The notes beneath the pieces were generated by a model. It worked only from the letters and a program-made list of their open reading frames with translations. It did not search any database and was not told the origin of the DNA. A DNA stretch of 64,000 nucleotides from an uncultured Pseudomonadota bacterium (GTDB lineage: Bacteria > Pseudomonadota > Gammaproteobacteria > Burkholderiales > Rhodocyclaceae): the NCBI GenBank assembly GCA_903870055.1, contig CAIQBG010000024.1:62001-126000 (forward strand), read 5' to 3'. The position numbers and the translations under genes were made by a program. Positions 45,185-53,175 of this stretch are shown here, one piece after another. Position 1 is the stretch's first letter. Every line of letters begins with the position of its first letter.

Positions 45185-46360
45185 ATGATGACATTTAACT
45201 TTGATACGCCCATAAATCGCCAGACGCCTCCCCACGATGACTCTGTAAAGTGGGCAAAGTATGCGGGGCGTGATGTGTTGCCCATGTGGGTAGCCGATAT
45301 GGACTTTGCTCCACCGCCAGTGGTGATAGAGGCCGTGCAAGCCAGGGTGGCGCATGGTGTGCTTGGTTATCCGCACGTCACGCAGTCGGTAATAGATGCT
45401 GTCCTGCTTCATCTTGAGCGGGATCTTGGCTGGGTGGTTGATCCTGATTGGCTGGTCTGGCTTCCCGGTTTGGTGACAGGGCTTAATGTGGCCTGTCGGT
45501 CTGTGGGCGATACAGGTAGTGCTGTACTGACATCAACCCCCATTTATCCACCGTTTTGTTCAGCGCCAAAGTTCAGTGAACGCACCCTGCAAACAGTTTC
45601 CCTACAGCAGCAGGGGAATGACTGGATATGGGATCTGGATGCGCTTAAGTCTGCCAGCGATGCCTCTACTAAGCTCCTGATGCTTTGCAATCCGGATAAT
45701 CCGGTTGGCCGTGTGTGGCGTGAAGAAGAGTTACGTGCTTTGGCTGAACTGGCGGAGGAGCGAGATTGGGTGATCTGCTCGGATGATATTCATTGTGAGT
45801 TGTTGCTAGAGCCAGGCATTCGTTACACACCGCTGGCGAGTCTTTCTCCGGAAATTGCACGACGGACAATTAGTCTATTCGCACCGTCCAAGACATATAA
45901 CATCCCCGGACTGGGCGCTTCATTTGCAGTGATTCCAGATGCGGTTTTACGCCGGCGATTCGAACGGGTGATAGCAGGCATTGTGCCGCATATCAATGTG
46001 CTGGGTTATACCGCTATGGAAGGGGCTTATCGTGATGGGGTGCCATGGCGTAATGCACTGCTTGCGTATTTAAGGGTCAATCGGGATCGTCTGATTGGCG
46101 CAGTCAATGCGATGCCGGGTCTGAAGGTGCATTCACCTGAAGCCACTTATCTGGCCTGGATTGATGCCCGTGGTCTGCAACTGCCAGAAGGGGTAAGCGC
46201 CGCACAGTTTTTTGAAGCAGCCGGTGTGGGGCTCTCGCCAGGTCAGGATTTTCAGCCCGGCGCAGCTGATTATGTGCGGCTCAATTTCGGTTGTACGCGA
46301 CAGACGCTGGAAGAAGCGATTGCCCGCATGGCCAGCGCTTGTGCAAGGCAGGTTGGCTAG
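45185..46360 (+). CDS. patB: PatB/MalY-type C-S lyase (cystathionine beta-lyase-like)
   Basis: 391 residues from ATG 45185 (second ATG 45188). Class I/II PLP enzyme of the MalY-PatB group, which cleave C-S bonds of cystathionine or cysteine conjugates. Seen: MWVADMDFAPPPVVIEAV (about 34-51), the Asn-Pro motif CNPDNPVGRVW, DDIHCELLL (PLP Asp) and the PLP lysine in FAPSKTYNIPGL. It is convergent with the ArnT-like gene and its stop shares the palindrome CTAG with that gene's stop. Substrate not determined. Confidence 0.88.
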   Translation: MMTFNFDTPINRQTPPHDDSVKWAKYAGRDVLPMWVADMDFAPPPVVIEAVQARVAHGVLGYPHVTQSVIDAVLLHLERDLGWVVDPDWLVWLPGLVTGLNVACRSVGDTGSAVLTSTPIYPPFCSAPKFSERTLQTVSLQQQGNDWIWDLDALKSASDASTKLLMLCNPDNPVGRVWREEELRALAELAEERDWVICSDDIHCELLLEPGIRYTPLASLSPEIARRTISLFAPSKTYNIPGLGASFAVIPDAVLRRRFERVIAGIVPHINVLGYTAMEGAYRDGVPWRNALLAYLRVNRDRLIGAVNAMPGLKVHSPEATYLAWIDARGLQLPEGVSAAQFFEAAGVGLSPGQDFQPGAADYVRLNFGCTRQTLEEAIARMASACARQVG

Positions 46361-48096
46361 CGCTTACGGTTATCGAGCAGTAATTCACGCAGGAACAGAT
46401 GCTTGGCAACTTCTCCCTTGAGCATCGCTCGTATTTCCGCATCGCTCTGACGGCCCTTGAGCTCCAGTCGCTCTCCGAGAATTTTACAGTCAGTACATAT
46501 AGGTGCATCCAGAGGCTGCTGAACGATAAGGATCGGGTACTGTTCGCGCAGGAGATGCAGTGGTAGGTTGCCATCGCTCCGGTAACCACGGATATCTGCA
46601 CCGGGTAACAGGAAACGGTATTGCTCGTATGCAGCATTGAAGTTATAGGGTACCCATACCTGCTGACCAGCCAGTTGCCATTGCACGGCTTCTTTATAAC
46701 GGCCCATGGGGCCATCGAAGACGCTTAGAAAGCCCGTAAGGGTTAGATAGGCGGCAAAGACCCCTGGCAGCGTGAGCCAGGGTAGCAGGCGTGGGATAAG
46801 TAGTGATAGCACCAGGGCGCTAAGTACGATGACCAGGAGTACGGCCTCCGTACCGGAATACAACGTTTGGCCGACATCCTGCTGCAAGAGCCAGCCGAGA
46901 TAACCGATCGCGCTGATTGCGAGGGTGCAAATCAGGGTGGTGGCAAAAAGCAACCAGCGATTCAGTCGGAACCATACGAGTGCAATCAGGATAGCCAGCG
47001 CCGGCATAGCTTCAAGTAGGTAGCGGCTGGAACGTTGGCTCGGGAAGCAGAATACGACAAATAGAATCAGCACCCACCACCAGAGATACTTTTCGTCATC
47101 GCTCAAGTCGCCATGACGAAATAGACGCCACAACACAAGACCAATGGTCCCGAAAACAATGATGGCTAATAGACCGGCGTTAATGCCATAGCCCGGAATC
47201 AGCGTCCAGATGCTCCCATCTCCCCAGAACATTTTTGAAAGATAGCTTGGGCCATGTGGATCAAATTTGCCGGCATTTTCACCGATCACAAACTCATTCC
47301 AAACCGCTTGAGGATCCGGATCAAAAACAAACCACAGAGCAAAAATACCGAGCGAGAGTAGGGCAATTAGGATCAGTTTGTAGGAATCGCGTTTAAAACA
47401 CTCAAAAAACCGATAGTGCCGGTAGCGCAGGTACCAGAAGGCAAGACCAACCCCGACGGGTAGCAGTAATGCAAAGGATTTGTAGAGCAGGCCGATGCCG
47501 ATAGCGATGCCGATAGCGAGAGGGATTTTCCAGGCAGATTCAAAACTCTGTTTGCCGCCATAGAGCAGCAGAAAAAAGGGCATGAATAGCCAAAAGATTT
47601 CACCCGCATTGGTAAGGAAGGGGCGGCCGAATCGGTAAGTACTGAAGAAGGCAAGCCAGATAACAGCAGCAATCAGGCCAGTAACAATGTGCCGACCCGA
47701 AATCTTCCAGCCGAGCAGCCCAACCATTAATGCCGTAGCGAAGGTGTAAAGCACGTTGGGATAACGTAATTGCCAGAGGCTCCATTCCTGACCCCAGTGC
47801 GTACTAAGCATGCCTTGCCAAAAGAGCATGGGCGGCTTGGTGTTGCGCATGTTGTCGAGTGTGGATTGCAGGGGCAGCCAGTGGCCGCTATCTGCTGTCA
47901 GGCGGGCGATATGAGCGTAGGGAAACTCATCACCGTTTTTGGGGATTTGCAGACTATCCAGACCGAAAAAGTAGGTGCCGATGGCCAAAAGTAATACCGC
48001 AACACCCCAGAGAATGGCCAAGGGAGCTGAACGTGGGCCAGGATCTAGCTTGAGCCGTTGTTGGCGTAAATTGGCTGGTGTGGCCTGTTTCTTCAT
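46357..48096 (-). CDS. ArnT/PMT-family membrane glycosyltransferase
   Basis: 579 residues with about 12 membrane helices. The first periplasmic loop carries GDEFPYAHIARLTADSGHWL, with Asp/Glu at the place of the ArnT catalytic acidic residue, then NTKPPMLFWQGML. These GT-C enzymes transfer sugars from undecaprenyl-phosphate to lipid A or proteins; the exact donor and acceptor are unknown. The C-terminal domain is periplasmic. The gene overlaps GtrA by four bases and lies downstream of a GT9 glycosyltransferase, so an LPS/glycan role is likely. ArnT name not certain. Confidence 0.85.
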   Translation of the reverse strand: MKKQATPANLRQQRLKLDPGPRSAPLAILWGVAVLLLAIGTYFFGLDSLQIPKNGDEFPYAHIARLTADSGHWLPLQSTLDNMRNTKPPMLFWQGMLSTHWGQEWSLWQLRYPNVLYTFATALMVGLLGWKISGRHIVTGLIAAVIWLAFFSTYRFGRPFLTNAGEIFWLFMPFFLLLYGGKQSFESAWKIPLAIGIAIGIGLLYKSFALLLPVGVGLAFWYLRYRHYRFFECFKRDSYKLILIALLSLGIFALWFVFDPDPQAVWNEFVIGENAGKFDPHGPSYLSKMFWGDGSIWTLIPGYGINAGLLAIIVFGTIGLVLWRLFRHGDLSDDEKYLWWWVLILFVVFCFPSQRSSRYLLEAMPALAILIALVWFRLNRWLLFATTLICTLAISAIGYLGWLLQQDVGQTLYSGTEAVLLVIVLSALVLSLLIPRLLPWLTLPGVFAAYLTLTGFLSVFDGPMGRYKEAVQWQLAGQQVWVPYNFNAAYEQYRFLLPGADIRGYRSDGNLPLHLLREQYPILIVQQPLDAPICTDCKILGERLELKGRQSDAEIRAMLKGEVAKHLFLRELLLDNRKR

Positions 48097-48596
48097 GCGT
48101 TCGGGGGTGTCTGCCGGGCAGCTCGGTTAATCTTGAGCCGGCCAAAAGTCCAGAAATCATTGGCGACAAAGTTGAACAGGCTGGCAATAACTACGGCAAT
48201 CAGGTTGGCCAGCATGTAGTGGAGGAATAATGCAAACAGGTTCGTCAGGCCAAACTGGACGGCAATGCCAACCCAGCAAGCAAGCGAATATTGGCCGAAC
48301 TGAATGAGAACCGGTACGGAACGATGCTGCTTGCGGTCGAGCCAGGTCCAGCGACGGTTCCAGAAGAAGTTGCTAATTGTTGCGACAAAAATTGCCAGGG
48401 CTAGTGACAGATTTAACCGGAGGGTTTGTTGGGCCACTTCAGTGAAGAGGTATTCCTGCCCGACATATAGAACTGCCAGATTGACCACAACACCCGAGGC
48501 GCCAACGATGCCGAATTTGATAAAGCGCGGCCGGAACAAGGCGCCGATGAGCGGCAAAGCCTGCAAGGACTGAATTAGCGCACGCATATCGAACAC
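48093..48596 (-). CDS. GtrA-family membrane protein
   Basis: 167 residues, four membrane helices. GtrA flips bactoprenol-linked glucose in phage serotype-conversion systems and pairs with glycosyltransferases. Seen: FIKFGIVGASGVVVNLAVLY (about 26-45), NFFWNRRWTWLDR (about 79-91) and a later copy FNFVANDFWTFGRL, both matching the GtrA signature N-F-x-x-N/R-x-W-x-F. It overlaps the ArnT-like gene (ATGA), suggesting that the flippase and transferase work together. Confidence 0.92.
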   Translation of the reverse strand: MFDMRALIQSLQALPLIGALFRPRFIKFGIVGASGVVVNLAVLYVGQEYLFTEVAQQTLRLNLSLALAIFVATISNFFWNRRWTWLDRKQHRSVPVLIQFGQYSLACWVGIAVQFGLTNLFALFLHYMLANLIAVVIASLFNFVANDFWTFGRLKINRAARQTPPNA

Positions 48597-48614: not shown

Positions 48615-49868
48615 TCAGCGAGATTCGAGTGTGAAGGAAACGGGTTGTGCTGTAGGCGGTAGCCCCAGCAGTTCGTGCGCTTTAGCCAGCACTTGTTCCG
48701 GGGTGATCTGCTTGAGGCACTGGTTGTCACCATCGCAAGGGGACATACGATGGTTGTAGGCCGTTAGACAAGGCGAACAGGCCAGTGGCTGATGGAAAAA
48801 GTAGGCGTTCTTGGCCCACGATTGGTACAGACGCGGCGTTTCTGGACCAAAGAGAATAATCGTGGGAATAGGGGTCATAGCCGCAAATTGCCCCGGACCA
48901 CCGTCATTGGTTACCAGTAAAGCAGCCCGATGGAACAGCGCTAATAGGTGACGGACAGATCGGGTGTATCCCGTCAGATCAATACACATCGGGTGGCGGC
49001 AATGATTCAGTACGGCCTGGCCAAAGGCCTTGTCGCCCTTCAGGCCGATGACACCCACGGCATAACCCTGTTGCAGAAAGTGATCGGCAACACGGTAATA
49101 GTTTTCCAGCGGCCAGGCACGAATCGGTAGAATGCCGCCGCTAGGATAGATCAGCACCAGAGGCTTGCCAGCGACTGTCGGGAAATCGGCTTCGAGTTTA
49201 GTGACTTCGTTGGTGATCTCGCCGTCATTGAAGATCAGGGTCGGTGGGACAATGACTTCGTCTGTTGGTACCGTTTTGCCCGCTGGGTAGGACGTTGCAT
49301 CAATAGCATCAACCATGTTCAGAAGCTGATGGCTAAGATGGCGGTATGGGTTGTACATCACCGGATTGGTGAGGTATCCGCCTCGATAGAGGCCTTCCTG
49401 GGTATGCGGCTCAAAGCCGACCAGTACCGGTGCGCCACTCATATAGGCAATAAGACTGCTGACCCGGGCAAATAGTTCACAGTCGATAACGACATCAAAG
49501 CGCAGGGTGCGCATTTTCTGTAGCGCCTCCCACATGTCTGAAGCAAAGTCTTTCAGATTGCTATCGTTCAGGGTAATAACGTTCTGCTTGGGGACGATAT
49601 TCAGTAGGTCCAGCACTTCGCGGTTTTTGGCGAAAAGCATGACATGGAGTTCAGCACCCGGATAACGTGATTTGATCCGCTGGAACATCGGTTCGGCTAA
49701 TACCAGGCTGCCCATTTCGGACAACAGGATGACCAGAATGCGTTTTGGCTCAAGGCTACGTTTGCGCCGTAGGCCCAGTTTACGGATGCACCAATCCCAG
49801 GCTGTAAAGAGGGCGCACAGGGGCACACCTGCATATTTATCGACAGCGCGTTGGAATCGGATATCCAT
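48615..49868 (-). CDS. Glycosyltransferase family 9 (heptosyltransferase-like)
   Basis: 417 residues. GT-B fold of the ADP-heptose:LPS heptosyltransferase family. Seen: KRILVILLSEMGSLVLAEPM (about 42-61), NTP-type binding region, and LLVTNDGGPGQFAAMTPIPT with IILFGPETPRLY (about 308-340), which match the family's DSGPxH-type and FGxT-type motifs with changes (DGGP for DSGP). The acceptor cannot be set; LPS core or a cell-surface glycan is likely. It heads the GT9-gtrA-arnT-like run. Confidence 0.85.
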   Translation of the reverse strand: MDIRFQRAVDKYAGVPLCALFTAWDWCIRKLGLRRKRSLEPKRILVILLSEMGSLVLAEPMFQRIKSRYPGAELHVMLFAKNREVLDLLNIVPKQNVITLNDSNLKDFASDMWEALQKMRTLRFDVVIDCELFARVSSLIAYMSGAPVLVGFEPHTQEGLYRGGYLTNPVMYNPYRHLSHQLLNMVDAIDATSYPAGKTVPTDEVIVPPTLIFNDGEITNEVTKLEADFPTVAGKPLVLIYPSGGILPIRAWPLENYYRVADHFLQQGYAVGVIGLKGDKAFGQAVLNHCRHPMCIDLTGYTRSVRHLLALFHRAALLVTNDGGPGQFAAMTPIPTIILFGPETPRLYQSWAKNAYFFHQPLACSPCLTAYNHRMSPCDGDNQCLKQITPEQVLAKAHELLGLPPTAQPVSFTLESR

Positions 49869-49967: not shown

Positions 49968-51179
49968 ATGCTTAAACGCTGGTTCCCTATGATGGTCTTT
50001 GCTGTGGGGCTGTTGGCAGCCATTTTTACGGCTACCTTGCCTGAACGCCCACAGTTTGGGCAACCTGATCAAGCTACGGCAGCGTTGGCTGCCACAAAGG
50101 CCGCTGCTTTGCCCGCAAGCTTTGCCTGGGCAGACTTGCCAAGGCCAACGCCCTCCGCACATGCTGCAACCCTGGCAGAAGTATTGCCGGGTACGCGTTT
50201 GCCCGTTGACAGAACAGAACAGGATCTGGAGCCGGTACATCTGGTCGCGGCCTGGTTCGGCGGTAGCCGGGAAGGCGCGGCGGACGTCTCCCTATACCAG
50301 GCAGACTGGCATGCAAATGCCTCCTGGTTACCTGCGCGGGAAATTATGACGCGACAGCAAGCTGAACGAGAACTGGGTCGTAATATCCGTAAGCTGGGAA
50401 ATCCCCTGATCGTTACAGAACCTGGCCGGCTACATTTATTCTTTGTGAGTGTTTCTTACGGGGGTTGGGCTGGGAGCGCTATTAACCGCAGCACCTCCAC
50501 GGACGGCGGTAAGTTCTGGCAGCCATCACAACGTATTGTGACCAGTCCATTCTTTAATCTGAGTACGCTGGTACGCAACCCGGGCACCTGGTTATCTGAC
50601 GGCAGCCTGGGGTTGCCCGTTTATCACGAGTTTGTGACCAAGCATGGCGAGTGGCTACGCCTGGACCCCGAAGGCCGTGTTCTAGCCAAAGAGCGGATGC
50701 CAATGCCGCGGGCCACATTGCAGCCGGCCGTGGTTGCGCTGGATGGTCAGAATGCCGTTGCCGCACTGCGTGATGCCGGACCCGGCGAAAACCAGGTCCA
50801 ATGGAGCGAAACACATGATGCTGGGCGTAGCTGGCAAGCGGGATCGGCTCGAACCATTCCTAATCCGAATTCTGCGGTCGCGATGATCGGGCTACGCGAT
50901 GGTAGCCTGCTGATGGCCGGAAACCCGATTGGCGGTAACCGTAACCAACTCTCTCTGTTGCGCTCCACTGATCAGGGAAGCACCTGGACCCTGGTACGTG
51001 TTGTAGAACAAAGCCCGAATGACCGTGATGAATTTTCCTATCCGGCACTGATTCAGGATCGTACCGGGGCCATACACCTTGTGTATACCTGGTTACGTAA
51101 GGGCATTCGACATGCCCGATTTACCCAGGCCTGGCTGAATAATCCAGGCAACCCCACTGTACCGGCGGTACCACAATGA
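49968..51179 (+). CDS. Sialidase-fold (BNR/Asp-box) protein with N-terminal anchor
   Basis: 403 residues. An N-terminal hydrophobic segment (about 5-22, WFPMMVFAVGLLAAIFTA) is a signal or anchor. Three Asp boxes (S/T-x-D-x-G-x-x-W pattern) are seen at about 177-184 (STDGGKFW), 282-289 (THDAGRSW) and 333-340 (STDQGSTW), the mark of the six-bladed sialidase propeller. An early AAWFGGSREGA segment resembles the FAEGR-type arginine motif. Catalytic residues are not confirmed, so it may act on another sugar or only bind. Its stop overlaps the next gene. Confidence 0.8.
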   Translation: MLKRWFPMMVFAVGLLAAIFTATLPERPQFGQPDQATAALAATKAAALPASFAWADLPRPTPSAHAATLAEVLPGTRLPVDRTEQDLEPVHLVAAWFGGSREGAADVSLYQADWHANASWLPAREIMTRQQAERELGRNIRKLGNPLIVTEPGRLHLFFVSVSYGGWAGSAINRSTSTDGGKFWQPSQRIVTSPFFNLSTLVRNPGTWLSDGSLGLPVYHEFVTKHGEWLRLDPEGRVLAKERMPMPRATLQPAVVALDGQNAVAALRDAGPGENQVQWSETHDAGRSWQAGSARTIPNPNSAVAMIGLRDGSLLMAGNPIGGNRNQLSLLRSTDQGSTWTLVRVVEQSPNDRDEFSYPALIQDRTGAIHLVYTWLRKGIRHARFTQAWLNNPGNPTVPAVPQ

Positions 51180-51727
51180 TGTTGCCTGATCGTATATTCA
51201 TGCGTTTGCTGCGTTTGCCATATGTGCGCACACGCATGCTTATCATGTTGCTGTCGCTGGTGATGTTCGTGCCTTTGGCAGATCAGCTACTGTGGCGTTA
51301 CGTTTATGGCTTTATTAATGATCTGAGCCCAGGCACCTGGCTGATATTTTTTGTCTGGCTTGGCTTCCCCGACGCTTTTAATTTCTGGGTACGTGAAGAG
51401 TTGGCTTTCAAGCGCCGACTGATCCTCTGCCTGGGAATGCTGTGTTTCTATGTGTTGGCGCTTGGCGCTATCCCGTTTGACCCATATGCCTACGGTTTTC
51501 AGCCTTGGATTATTCTGTTTGGGTTGACTGCCTGGGTAGCCTGGCATGGCCGCAATGCAGCGGGGATTACCCTGTTGCTCGGTATTGATCTGGCCGTTTA
51601 CGCACTGCATGGACTGGCTTCAGATAACCTCTGGGATTACCTCTTTGATCCGGTCATGATGATTGTTCTCGCTATTAGTCTCATCCGCCCGCTCATGTCT
51701 CGTCGTAAAATCCGCTCTCAATCCTAA
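51176..51727 (+). CDS. Unrecognised small integral membrane protein
   Basis: 183 residues, about five membrane helices (about 24-44, 52-68, 82-100, 112-128, 135-165). I do not recognise a family. It begins MMLPDRIFMRLLRLPYVRTR, with a basic cytoplasmic start, and ends in a basic tail. Its ATG overlaps the sialidase-fold gene stop (ATGATG), so the two are coupled and probably act together. The pair lies beside the LPS/glycan genes and ahead of ppiD. Function unknown. Confidence 0.6.
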   Translation: MMLPDRIFMRLLRLPYVRTRMLIMLLSLVMFVPLADQLLWRYVYGFINDLSPGTWLIFFVWLGFPDAFNFWVREELAFKRRLILCLGMLCFYVLALGAIPFDPYAYGFQPWIILFGLTAWVAWHGRNAAGITLLLGIDLAVYALHGLASDNLWDYLFDPVMMIVLAISLIRPLMSRRKIRSQS

Positions 51728-51741
51728 CCTTAGGCTGTTCC

Positions 51742-53175
51742 ATGTTTGATCTCGTTAATAAACATCGTAAATTTGTTCAGATCTTGCTCGCCATGATCAC
51801 GCTGCCATTTGCCTTCTGGGGTATTGATTCCTATTTCAAGGATGCCGCGTCGACAGACGAAGTAGCGCGTGTGGGCAGCAGCAAAATCACCATGCAGCAA
51901 CTGGATGTGGCTATGCGTGAGCGCGCAGATCAAATACGCAGCCGTCAGGGAGGCTCGGTGGATGCCAAACTATTCGAGTCACCTGAGTTCCGTCAGAGTG
52001 TTCTAAACGAACTGGTCGAGCAGCGTTTGCTACTGGTCGAGTCGGAGCGCCTGGGGCTGGTGGCCAATGATGTCATTTTGCGTGAGCTGATCGCCCAGAT
52101 TCCTGCGTTCCAGGAAAACGGTAAATTCTCACCGACGAAATACGAACAAGTATTGCGTGCACAGGGTATGAACCCGACCACTTTCGAACAGAACCTGCGT
52201 CGTGATCTGACACAACAGATGCTGGTGAATGGCGTGGCTGCAACCACACAGATTTCCAAGACTCAGCTGAACCAGATCATTACGGCTGAATCACAGGAGC
52301 GTGATGTGTCAGTTGCCATGATTTCTGCGAGTGATTACCTGAAATCGGTCAGCGTGAGCGATGAAGCGGTTCGACAGTTCTATGAATCCAACCCCAAGCA
52401 GTTCCAGACGCCGGAACGCGTTAAGGTGGCTTATGTCGTGCTGAGTGACCCTAAGGTTGTTGCCAAAGAGTCTGAGAATTTCAGCAATATGGTTTACGAG
52501 CAATCGGATAGTTATAAAGATGTCGCCAAAGCACTTAACCTGAAGGTGGAAGAGAGCGGTTGGATTAGTGGCAATGCTCAGGGCGCACAGGGTTTGCTGG
52601 CGAACCCGAAGGTACTGCAAACCATCTTTAATCCGGGTAGCCTCAAAGATAAGCGGAATAGTGCGGCGATTGAAGTTGCGCCCAATGTGCTGGTTTCGGT
52701 GCGTGTTACAGAATACGAACCAGTTGGCTTACGTCCATTTGATGCGGTTTCTGCAGATATTAAAACCTATTTGACGCGTAAAGCAGCTGTCGAAAAGGCA
52801 ACGGCTGACGGAGAAGCCAAGCTTGCTGAACTCAAAGCTGGCAAAACGCCGGCTGATTTAAAATGGTCGGCCAACAAGAGTGTGAGCCGTCTGCAGCCGA
52901 ATGGTTTGCCGGGGGATGCCGTGCAACTCGTGGGTGCTGTCGATGCTGCAACCTTGCCGGCCTATACTGGTGGTCAGGCGGGCGGTGAGGGTTATGCGCT
53001 TTACAAGGTCAGTGCCGTTAAATCGGGTGCGGCACTCGGTGATGAAAAGCGTGCGCAGATTGGTATGGCTTATCAGCGTTTTGTACAACAGGCTGACGTG
53101 GTCAGTCTGATGGTGGGCTTGCGTGATCGTCACCCGGTAAAGATTGCCAAGCGACCAGAAGCTGAGAAGCAATAA
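51742..53175 (+). CDS. ppiD: PpiD-type periplasmic chaperone lacking the parvulin domain
   Basis: 477 residues. The N-terminal region is classic PpiD/SurA_N: cytosolic MFDLVNKHRKFVQILLAMIT with a membrane helix (about 12-28), then the helical chaperone domain (about 35-200). Around residues 228-246 the sequence passes from VKVAYVVLSDP directly to ESENFSNMVYEQSDSYKDVA. In betaproteobacterial PpiD, these two parts normally flank a parvulin PPIase domain, giving about 620-640 residues. No HIL, GDLG or parvulin motif is found here, so the domain is missing in frame. C-terminal region is retained. Probably a membrane-tethered chaperone near SecYEG. Confidence 0.88.
   Translation: MFDLVNKHRKFVQILLAMITLPFAFWGIDSYFKDAASTDEVARVGSSKITMQQLDVAMRERADQIRSRQGGSVDAKLFESPEFRQSVLNELVEQRLLLVESERLGLVANDVILRELIAQIPAFQENGKFSPTKYEQVLRAQGMNPTTFEQNLRRDLTQQMLVNGVAATTQISKTQLNQIITAESQERDVSVAMISASDYLKSVSVSDEAVRQFYESNPKQFQTPERVKVAYVVLSDPKVVAKESENFSNMVYEQSDSYKDVAKALNLKVEESGWISGNAQGAQGLLANPKVLQTIFNPGSLKDKRNSAAIEVAPNVLVSVRVTEYEPVGLRPFDAVSADIKTYLTRKAAVEKATADGEAKLAELKAGKTPADLKWSANKSVSRLQPNGLPGDAVQLVGAVDAATLPAYTGGQAGGEGYALYKVSAVKSGAALGDEKRAQIGMAYQRFVQQADVVSLMVGLRDRHPVKIAKRPEAEKQ

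Follow-up and report, generated by a model that had tools for sequence, protein, structure and literature searches.

A BNR/Asp-box and membrane protein pair linked to ArnT-like transferases as a probable Kdo hydrolase of the KdoH1/KdoH2 type

What is the function of a sialidase-fold protein that is encoded in overlap with a membrane protein and next to lipopolysaccharide genes? The question is raised by two open reading frames in a window of 64,000 nucleotides (contig CAIQBG010000024.1 of assembly GCA_903870055.1, positions 62,001 to 126,000), whose closest relative with a name is a Rhodocyclaceae MAG. The initial annotation, made from the sequence alone, took them for a pair modifying or trimming an envelope glycan, with the sugar that the adjacent enzymes attach as a possible target. 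The features of the locus are as follows (positions are those of the window).

46357..48096, minus strand: ArnT-like GT-C transferase, a divergent neighbour and likely partner pathway (its relative in locus L040 matches PMT)
48093..48596, minus strand: GtrA-family protein (PF04138, 8.5e-27)
48615..49868, minus strand: GT9 (heptosyltransferase-family) protein (PF01075, 4.3e-17; TIGR02195 below cut-off)
49968..51179, plus strand: KdoH1-like BNR/Asp-box (sialidase-fold) subunit, 403 aa (by Pfam BNR_2, fold and tree)
49971..50027, plus strand: putative N-terminal membrane anchor, residues 2-20 (hydropathy peak 1.61)
50496..50519, plus strand: Asp box 1, residues 177-184 (strict motif)
50811..50834, plus strand: Asp box 2, residues 282-289 (strict motif)
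50964..50987, plus strand: Asp box 3, residues 333-340 (strict motif)
51176..51727, plus strand: KdoH2-like membrane subunit (MEM), 183 aa, with the motifs DPYxxG(Y/F) and NLWDYLxDP (MEM profile A1; related motifs at the kdoH2-type locus)

The overlapping genes and their near-obligate pairing

The reading frames 49968-51179 and 51176-51727 share four bases, ATGA, and the overlap described in the initial annotation is thus real. Its three Asp boxes and N-terminal anchor hold as well: strict S/T-x-D-x-G-x-x-W boxes occur three times in the BNR subunit, from residues 177, 282 and 333 onwards, a number reached in none of 5000 residue shuffles of the protein, and the predicted anchor is backed by the hydropathy peak at residues 2-20. 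The best family match of this protein is the general BNR_2 model (Pfam, NCBIfam), with an E value of 6.6e-70 over residues 91-371 in Pfam, and its structure model, which is of low confidence (pLDDT 58), has the sialidase propeller fold (Z 28.8 to human Neu2, rmsd 3.0, 307 aligned).

The GT9 and GtrA neighbours were also named correctly; together with the ArnT-like gene they lie on the opposite strand, divergent and upstream of the pair. The ArnT-like assignment goes through a relative, the L040 protein, which matches PMT and, weakly, the ArnT model; the window protein has no Pfam or NCBIfam match of its own. On the other side, a PpiD/SurA-like gene (51742-53175, same strand) begins 14 bases past the membrane gene and may share a transcript with the pair.

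The membrane protein was described as having five helices and no recognised family. Its structure model, of low confidence (pTM 0.26) and fed into no search, indeed contains five helices of at least 18 residues, while a simple hydropathy scan at one threshold gives four peaks in this protein, six in that of locus L035 and seven in that of L193, so that five helices are plausible and not settled. No Pfam or NCBIfam model matches it, and distant MEM members from the four loci tried gave chance-level matches only; that it is of an unknown kind is nevertheless not supported, as it is KdoH2-like (see below).

The BNR and MEM genes form a near-obligate pair. Among 73 loci (the flanks of 72 places plus the window), BNR stands directly upstream of MEM on the same strand in 71, the two others being L132, where MEM is at the contig start, and L133, where a short MEM piece lies near the contig end. 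Both genes were detected in the same 13 of 61 related genomes. The MEM profile matches 59 of the 297 genomes of the bacterial family (22 of 68 genera) and 13 of the 369 genomes of the class, the own genome being counted in both figures. A BNR match at E <=1e-15 is present in 63 of the 297 family genomes, and in all 57 with a strong match (>190 bits) the MEM partner is present too: by the profile in 56, and by direct reading in the 57th (G161). The six remaining genomes have a weak BNR match (83-104 bits), with MEM present in G277 and not found in the stretch read in the other five; G274 and G303 have a MEM match without a BNR match. The short membrane-gene pieces near contig ends in L133 and L206 (G303), which have no recognisable BNR partner, are possibly broken pairs.

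Kinship with the kdoH loci of Francisella and Helicobacter

In Francisella novicida, kdoH2 and kdoH1 correspond to FTN_0494 and FTN_0495 in the available part of PMC4688374, and excerpts of PMC2928790 list FTN_0495 as a BNR/Asp-box protein, FTN_0494 as a membrane protein and FTN_0493 as mtn. The adjoining gene on the other side of FTN_0495, FTN_0496, is slt, of 1,977 bp and on the opposite strand, as far as the available text of PMC6587636 describes it. We identify our pair as KdoH1/KdoH2-type because the same slt/mtn gene order recurs among its relatives. Two loci, L193 and L198, have slt-BNR-MEM-mtn in immediate succession, both in genomes of about 30% GC (with mtn in L193 confirmed by an equivalog model), and the arrangement is also found in L196 and L197, as judged by eye. 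MEM and the mtn-like gene are separated in L194, L195 and L199 by another SLT-like gene, whole or in pieces, and in L145 a second long gene lies downstream and a Frag1-like gene between the 1,977-bp SLT gene and BNR.

A BNR match is present in only 8 of 17 genomes of genus g143 (28-32% GC over the stretches read), which counts against the assignment, and none was found in the 13 other genomes of its family. All eight BNR proteins of g143 (221-259 bits) have an adjoining MEM partner (29-54 bits), which means that both window-family profiles match the genes of the Francisella-type locus in low-GC genomes. These are very probably kdoH1-kdoH2 loci, with their Francisella identity drawn from gene order and GC content. 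A tree built from 89 BNR proteins, two short fragments having been dropped beforehand, sets 77 pair members, including the eight kdoH-type proteins, apart from 12 unpaired BNR_2 proteins with a support of 0.97. Reportedly, a 2010 study described KdoH1 as sialidase-related with a single membrane segment; the window BNR subunit agrees with this description.

In the membrane subunit, Y104, G107, N151, W153, L156 and D158 are common to MEM and the eight KdoH2-like proteins nearly throughout, and G45 and P159 are mostly kept; by contrast, D102 is replaced by K or T and D154 by N in all eight kdoH-type relatives. KdoH2 has seven membrane segments, and the four hydropathy peaks of the window protein, set beside the seven of L193, count against the assignment. 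Judged by sequence, both subunits are akin to the proteins of the FTN_0494/0495-type locus, and they resemble the Francisella KdoH1/KdoH2 proteins (KdhAB; FTN_0495/FTN_0494) in joining a BNR/Asp-box and a membrane protein from adjacent genes. The surroundings differ: the Francisella locus lies beside slt and mtn, whereas the window pair lies beside an ArnT-like gene.

The H. pylori proteins KdoH1/KdoH2 (HP0579/HP0580) form, in the published portions available, a Kdo hydrolase encoded by two genes, which works at the periplasmic face ahead of other changes to lipid A; the likeness to our pair is one of description rather than of compared sequences. Excerpts from the literature report a Kdo hydrolase for both Helicobacter and Francisella, its loss reducing polymyxin resistance in the former and virulence in the latter. 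For H. pylori KdoH mutants, the available text of PMC5371381 gives polymyxin MICs 37- and 1147-fold lower and ascribes this to deficient lipid A modification; trimming before modification therefore has a precedent, and by homology the window pair should act as the H. pylori enzyme does. As for other bacteria, searches for KdoH1/2 in Capnocytophaga yielded nothing and Acinetobacter has no obvious KdoH homologues, according to the consulted parts of one published study each. As far as titles and abstract openings reveal, the pair is untreated outside Helicobacter and Francisella, though "Kdo hydrolase" also occurs in a Haemophilus influenzae annotation paper (PMC3877243).

A conserved pocket compared with that of sialidases

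On the pocket check suggested in the initial annotation the outcome is mixed: the propeller lacks the sialidase triad and contains a strongly conserved pocket in most members, with a dense set of invariant polar residues. Three positions were aligned by profile to the Micromonospora viridifaciens sialidase (1eur), the counts referring to the 69 pair members outside the kdoH-type group.

50769..50771, plus strand: R268, aligned with the second Arg of the sialidase triad; R in 65/69
50940..50942, plus strand: R325, aligned with the third Arg of the triad; R in 66/69
51039..51041, plus strand: Y358, aligned with the catalytic Tyr (Tyr370 of 1eur); Y in 62/69

These residues pair with the catalytic R276, R342 and Tyr370 of the Micromonospora enzyme, the last of which is named in a PDB title. 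The rest of the site was placed by hand. At what is presumably the position of the first Arg stands H65 (His in 62 of the 69; alignment to the sialidase motif), at the presumed place of the Glu stands Q252 (Gln in 65 of the 69; residue count from the second Arg), and D106 presumably lies near the acid/base (by motif). Thus, neither the Arg triad of GH33 (H65 by hand alignment, R268 and R325 aligned) nor its Tyr/Glu pair (Y358 aligned, Q252 by hand alignment) is complete, and the BNR subunit, judging from its residues, keeps a part of the sialidase machinery and not the triad.

With true sialidases (GH33) such as the Micromonospora enzyme and human Neu2, our protein shares the propeller fold, the Asp boxes, the Tyr and two Arg, and the fold, the three boxes and R268, R325 and Y358 speak for an enzyme of this kind, with sialic acid or another nonulosonate as its substrate. 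This reading is nonetheless extremely improbable, as the hand alignment puts His and Gln where the first Arg and the Glu would be, the best family match is the general BNR_2 model, the protein groups with partnered kdoH-type proteins and, unlike GH33 sialidases, it has a membrane partner. A plain sialidase was rejected on the pocket residues.

The unpaired relatives share the domain. H65, N145, R268, N299, N319 and Y358 are found in all 12 unpaired BNR_2 and all eight KdoH1-like proteins, and R325 in 12 and seven of them, respectively. However, these MEM-less "sialidase family proteins" of plasmids, other genomes and viral contigs form a separate clade, and no membrane partner was found in the stretches read. 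Among plasmids, 307 records contain a BNR_2 protein related to that of the window, and its membrane partner has no match there; four plasmid copies lie amid unrelated genes, e.g., ABC transporters or a rhamnosidase. Distant BNR_2 proteins occur in four viral contigs, and no relative of the membrane protein was found in viral contigs. In the large viral contigs L146, L147 and L148, the BNR_2 proteins have many pocket residues in common with the window protein.

Differences from the kdoH-type proteins concern the pocket as well. K142, H220, K225 and E228 are replaced in all eight KdoH1-like proteins, and D106 is replaced by N in seven of them, hence it may not be essential. Because several pocket residues and D102/D154 of MEM differ in this way, the substrate of the window family may be different from that of the kdoH-type proteins.

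Linkage to ArnT-like transferases and a role in lipid A modification

The coupling of the pair to ArnT-like transferases is the new element of this locus. By models built from the same 73 loci, with the window gene and the L035 gene as seeds, 43 loci (22 genera) have an ArnT-like gene of the same orientation ending within 1 kb upstream, and it lies within 5 kb in seven more; none was found within 5 kb in 17 loci, and linkage cannot be judged in four loci at contig edges and two without BNR. Chance adjacency of the pair and ArnT-like genes was rejected from these neighbourhood counts. Several loci have the pair embedded in an arn-type operon. For L035 and L039, a dehydrogenase of the ArnA type and a formyltransferase pass the NCBIfam cut-offs, with ArnD-, ArnC- and ArnT-like genes below them.

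The association extends to whole genomes. At cut-offs of our own choice, the ArnT2 subfamily (E <=1e-60) is present in 26 of 297 genomes and the window ArnT-like subfamily (E <=1e-40) in 8 of 277, and every one of these genomes carries the pair. The association probability is 4e-21 by genomes, a value that ignores relatedness, and 3e-9 by genera, which is only a guide. The link is one-way, since 25 of the 59 MEM genomes have neither subfamily match (the window subfamily being sought in 277 of the 297 genomes). It is also not universal: intact pairs exist without an ArnT-like gene within 5 kb, e.g., L125, L127, L129, L134-L136 and L140.

We consider that the pair is probably a KdoH1/KdoH2-type Kdo hydrolase, which would take the outer Kdo off Kdo2-lipid A and feed the trimmed product to an ArnT-like transferase. 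For the reaction, its substrate, the side of the membrane and the order of the steps alike, we infer the following scenario: the BNR and MEM proteins together would remove the outer Kdo after export, Kdo-lipid A would then be the acceptor, or a better acceptor, for the transferase encoded alongside, and trimming would in this way prepare lipid A for a sugar from a polyprenyl carrier. The own genome contains one match to a WaaA-type gene (PF04413, over cut-off), as expected of a host that makes Kdo-lipid A, and one ArnC-like protein. KdkA (Kdo kinase), which should exclude the pair if it were the alternative route to a single Kdo, passed the cut-off in none of the 297 genomes; 218 gave weak matches with a model that also matches 8 of 14 controls, archaea among them.

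Of the functional proposals in the initial annotation, that of an envelope-glycan trimming pair beside LPS genes is supported. Its expectation that the pair keeps to glycan genes is contradicted in part by the 17 loci without a nearby ArnT-like gene, and the sugar added by the neighbours is not supported as the likely substrate, homology pointing to the outer Kdo. The former idea survives within an unlikely rival, namely that a hydrolase of KdoH1/KdoH2 architecture acts on a different sugar, e.g., the residue added by the ArnT-like enzyme or hydroxylated Kdo (Ko). Tight linkage to two ArnT-like subfamilies and the pocket positions that differ from kdoH-type proteins suit this rival, while intact pairs exist without a nearby ArnT-like gene and beside slt/mtn as in Francisella, and the linked ArnT-like genes span different subfamilies with the pair staying the same.

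The fate of the pair in genus g86 bears on these readings. Six of the ten g86 loci read (L111, L116, L118, L119, L124 and L131) have lost at least seven of 13 key pocket residues, and all six are in genomes without an ArnT2 match. The four intact loci (L105, L114, L115 and L123) are all in ArnT2 genomes, the transferase gene being distant in G172 (L123). The corresponding value is 0.005, which treats the ten loci as independent. Outside g86, only L144 among the aligned loci is eroded to this level. In the MEM tree the eroded loci are on about three branches, with supports from 0.58 to 0.997 and some unresolved, which suggests about three separate pocket losses. A response-regulator gene lies downstream of the pair in L118 and, by eye, also in L111 and L131.

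From this pattern, the hydrolase would seem to be retained where the transferase depends on it, as trimming before transfer would have it. A hydrolase that attacks what the transferase itself produces would fit just as well, and pocket erosion confined within g86 to genomes without an ArnT2 match is counted for the different-sugar rival. A much less probable reading is that the propeller has no catalytic activity and serves to dock or regulate the ArnT-like transferase. It would account for the residues that stand in place of the first Arg and the Glu in the sialidase site (H65, Q252; hand alignment) and for the six eroded loci, in which the BNR gene has no stops in the matched stretch and the MEM motif is kept; yet most pair members have the dense invariant polar residues, erosion where the transferase is missing is the opposite of a docking need, and the kdoH relatives are published as enzymes.

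Returning to Kdo trimming before transfer, we tentatively propose, as a possibility still rather doubtful, a sugar exchange on lipid A, in which the outer Kdo (or a Kdo-like sugar) would be clipped, a dedicated ArnT-like transferase would add a carrier-borne sugar on the freed site or an uncovered phosphate, and the hydrolase would decay once the transferase is lost. That the pair turns up in a further bacterial family, in 59 of the 297 genomes sampled, and is tied to ArnT-like genes suggests a more widespread strategy of trimming Kdo ahead of lipid A modification. Such a reading gives a testable function to a type of protein that public records call "sialidase family" and to a membrane protein without a family model.

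Two kinds of neighbourhood should be added. Besides ArnT2, the arn-type operon of L039 has another ArnT-like gene and one that is ArnF-like, as though it served two carrier-linked sugars. In L125, L127 and L129 (genus g78), where no ArnT-like gene was found, a gene of 686-724 aa adjoins the pair; in L129 its product has the sulfatase fold and a weak likeness to lipoteichoic acid synthase, and is perhaps another lipid A or glycan modifier. The L125 and L127 genes are similar to that of L129 by eye only.
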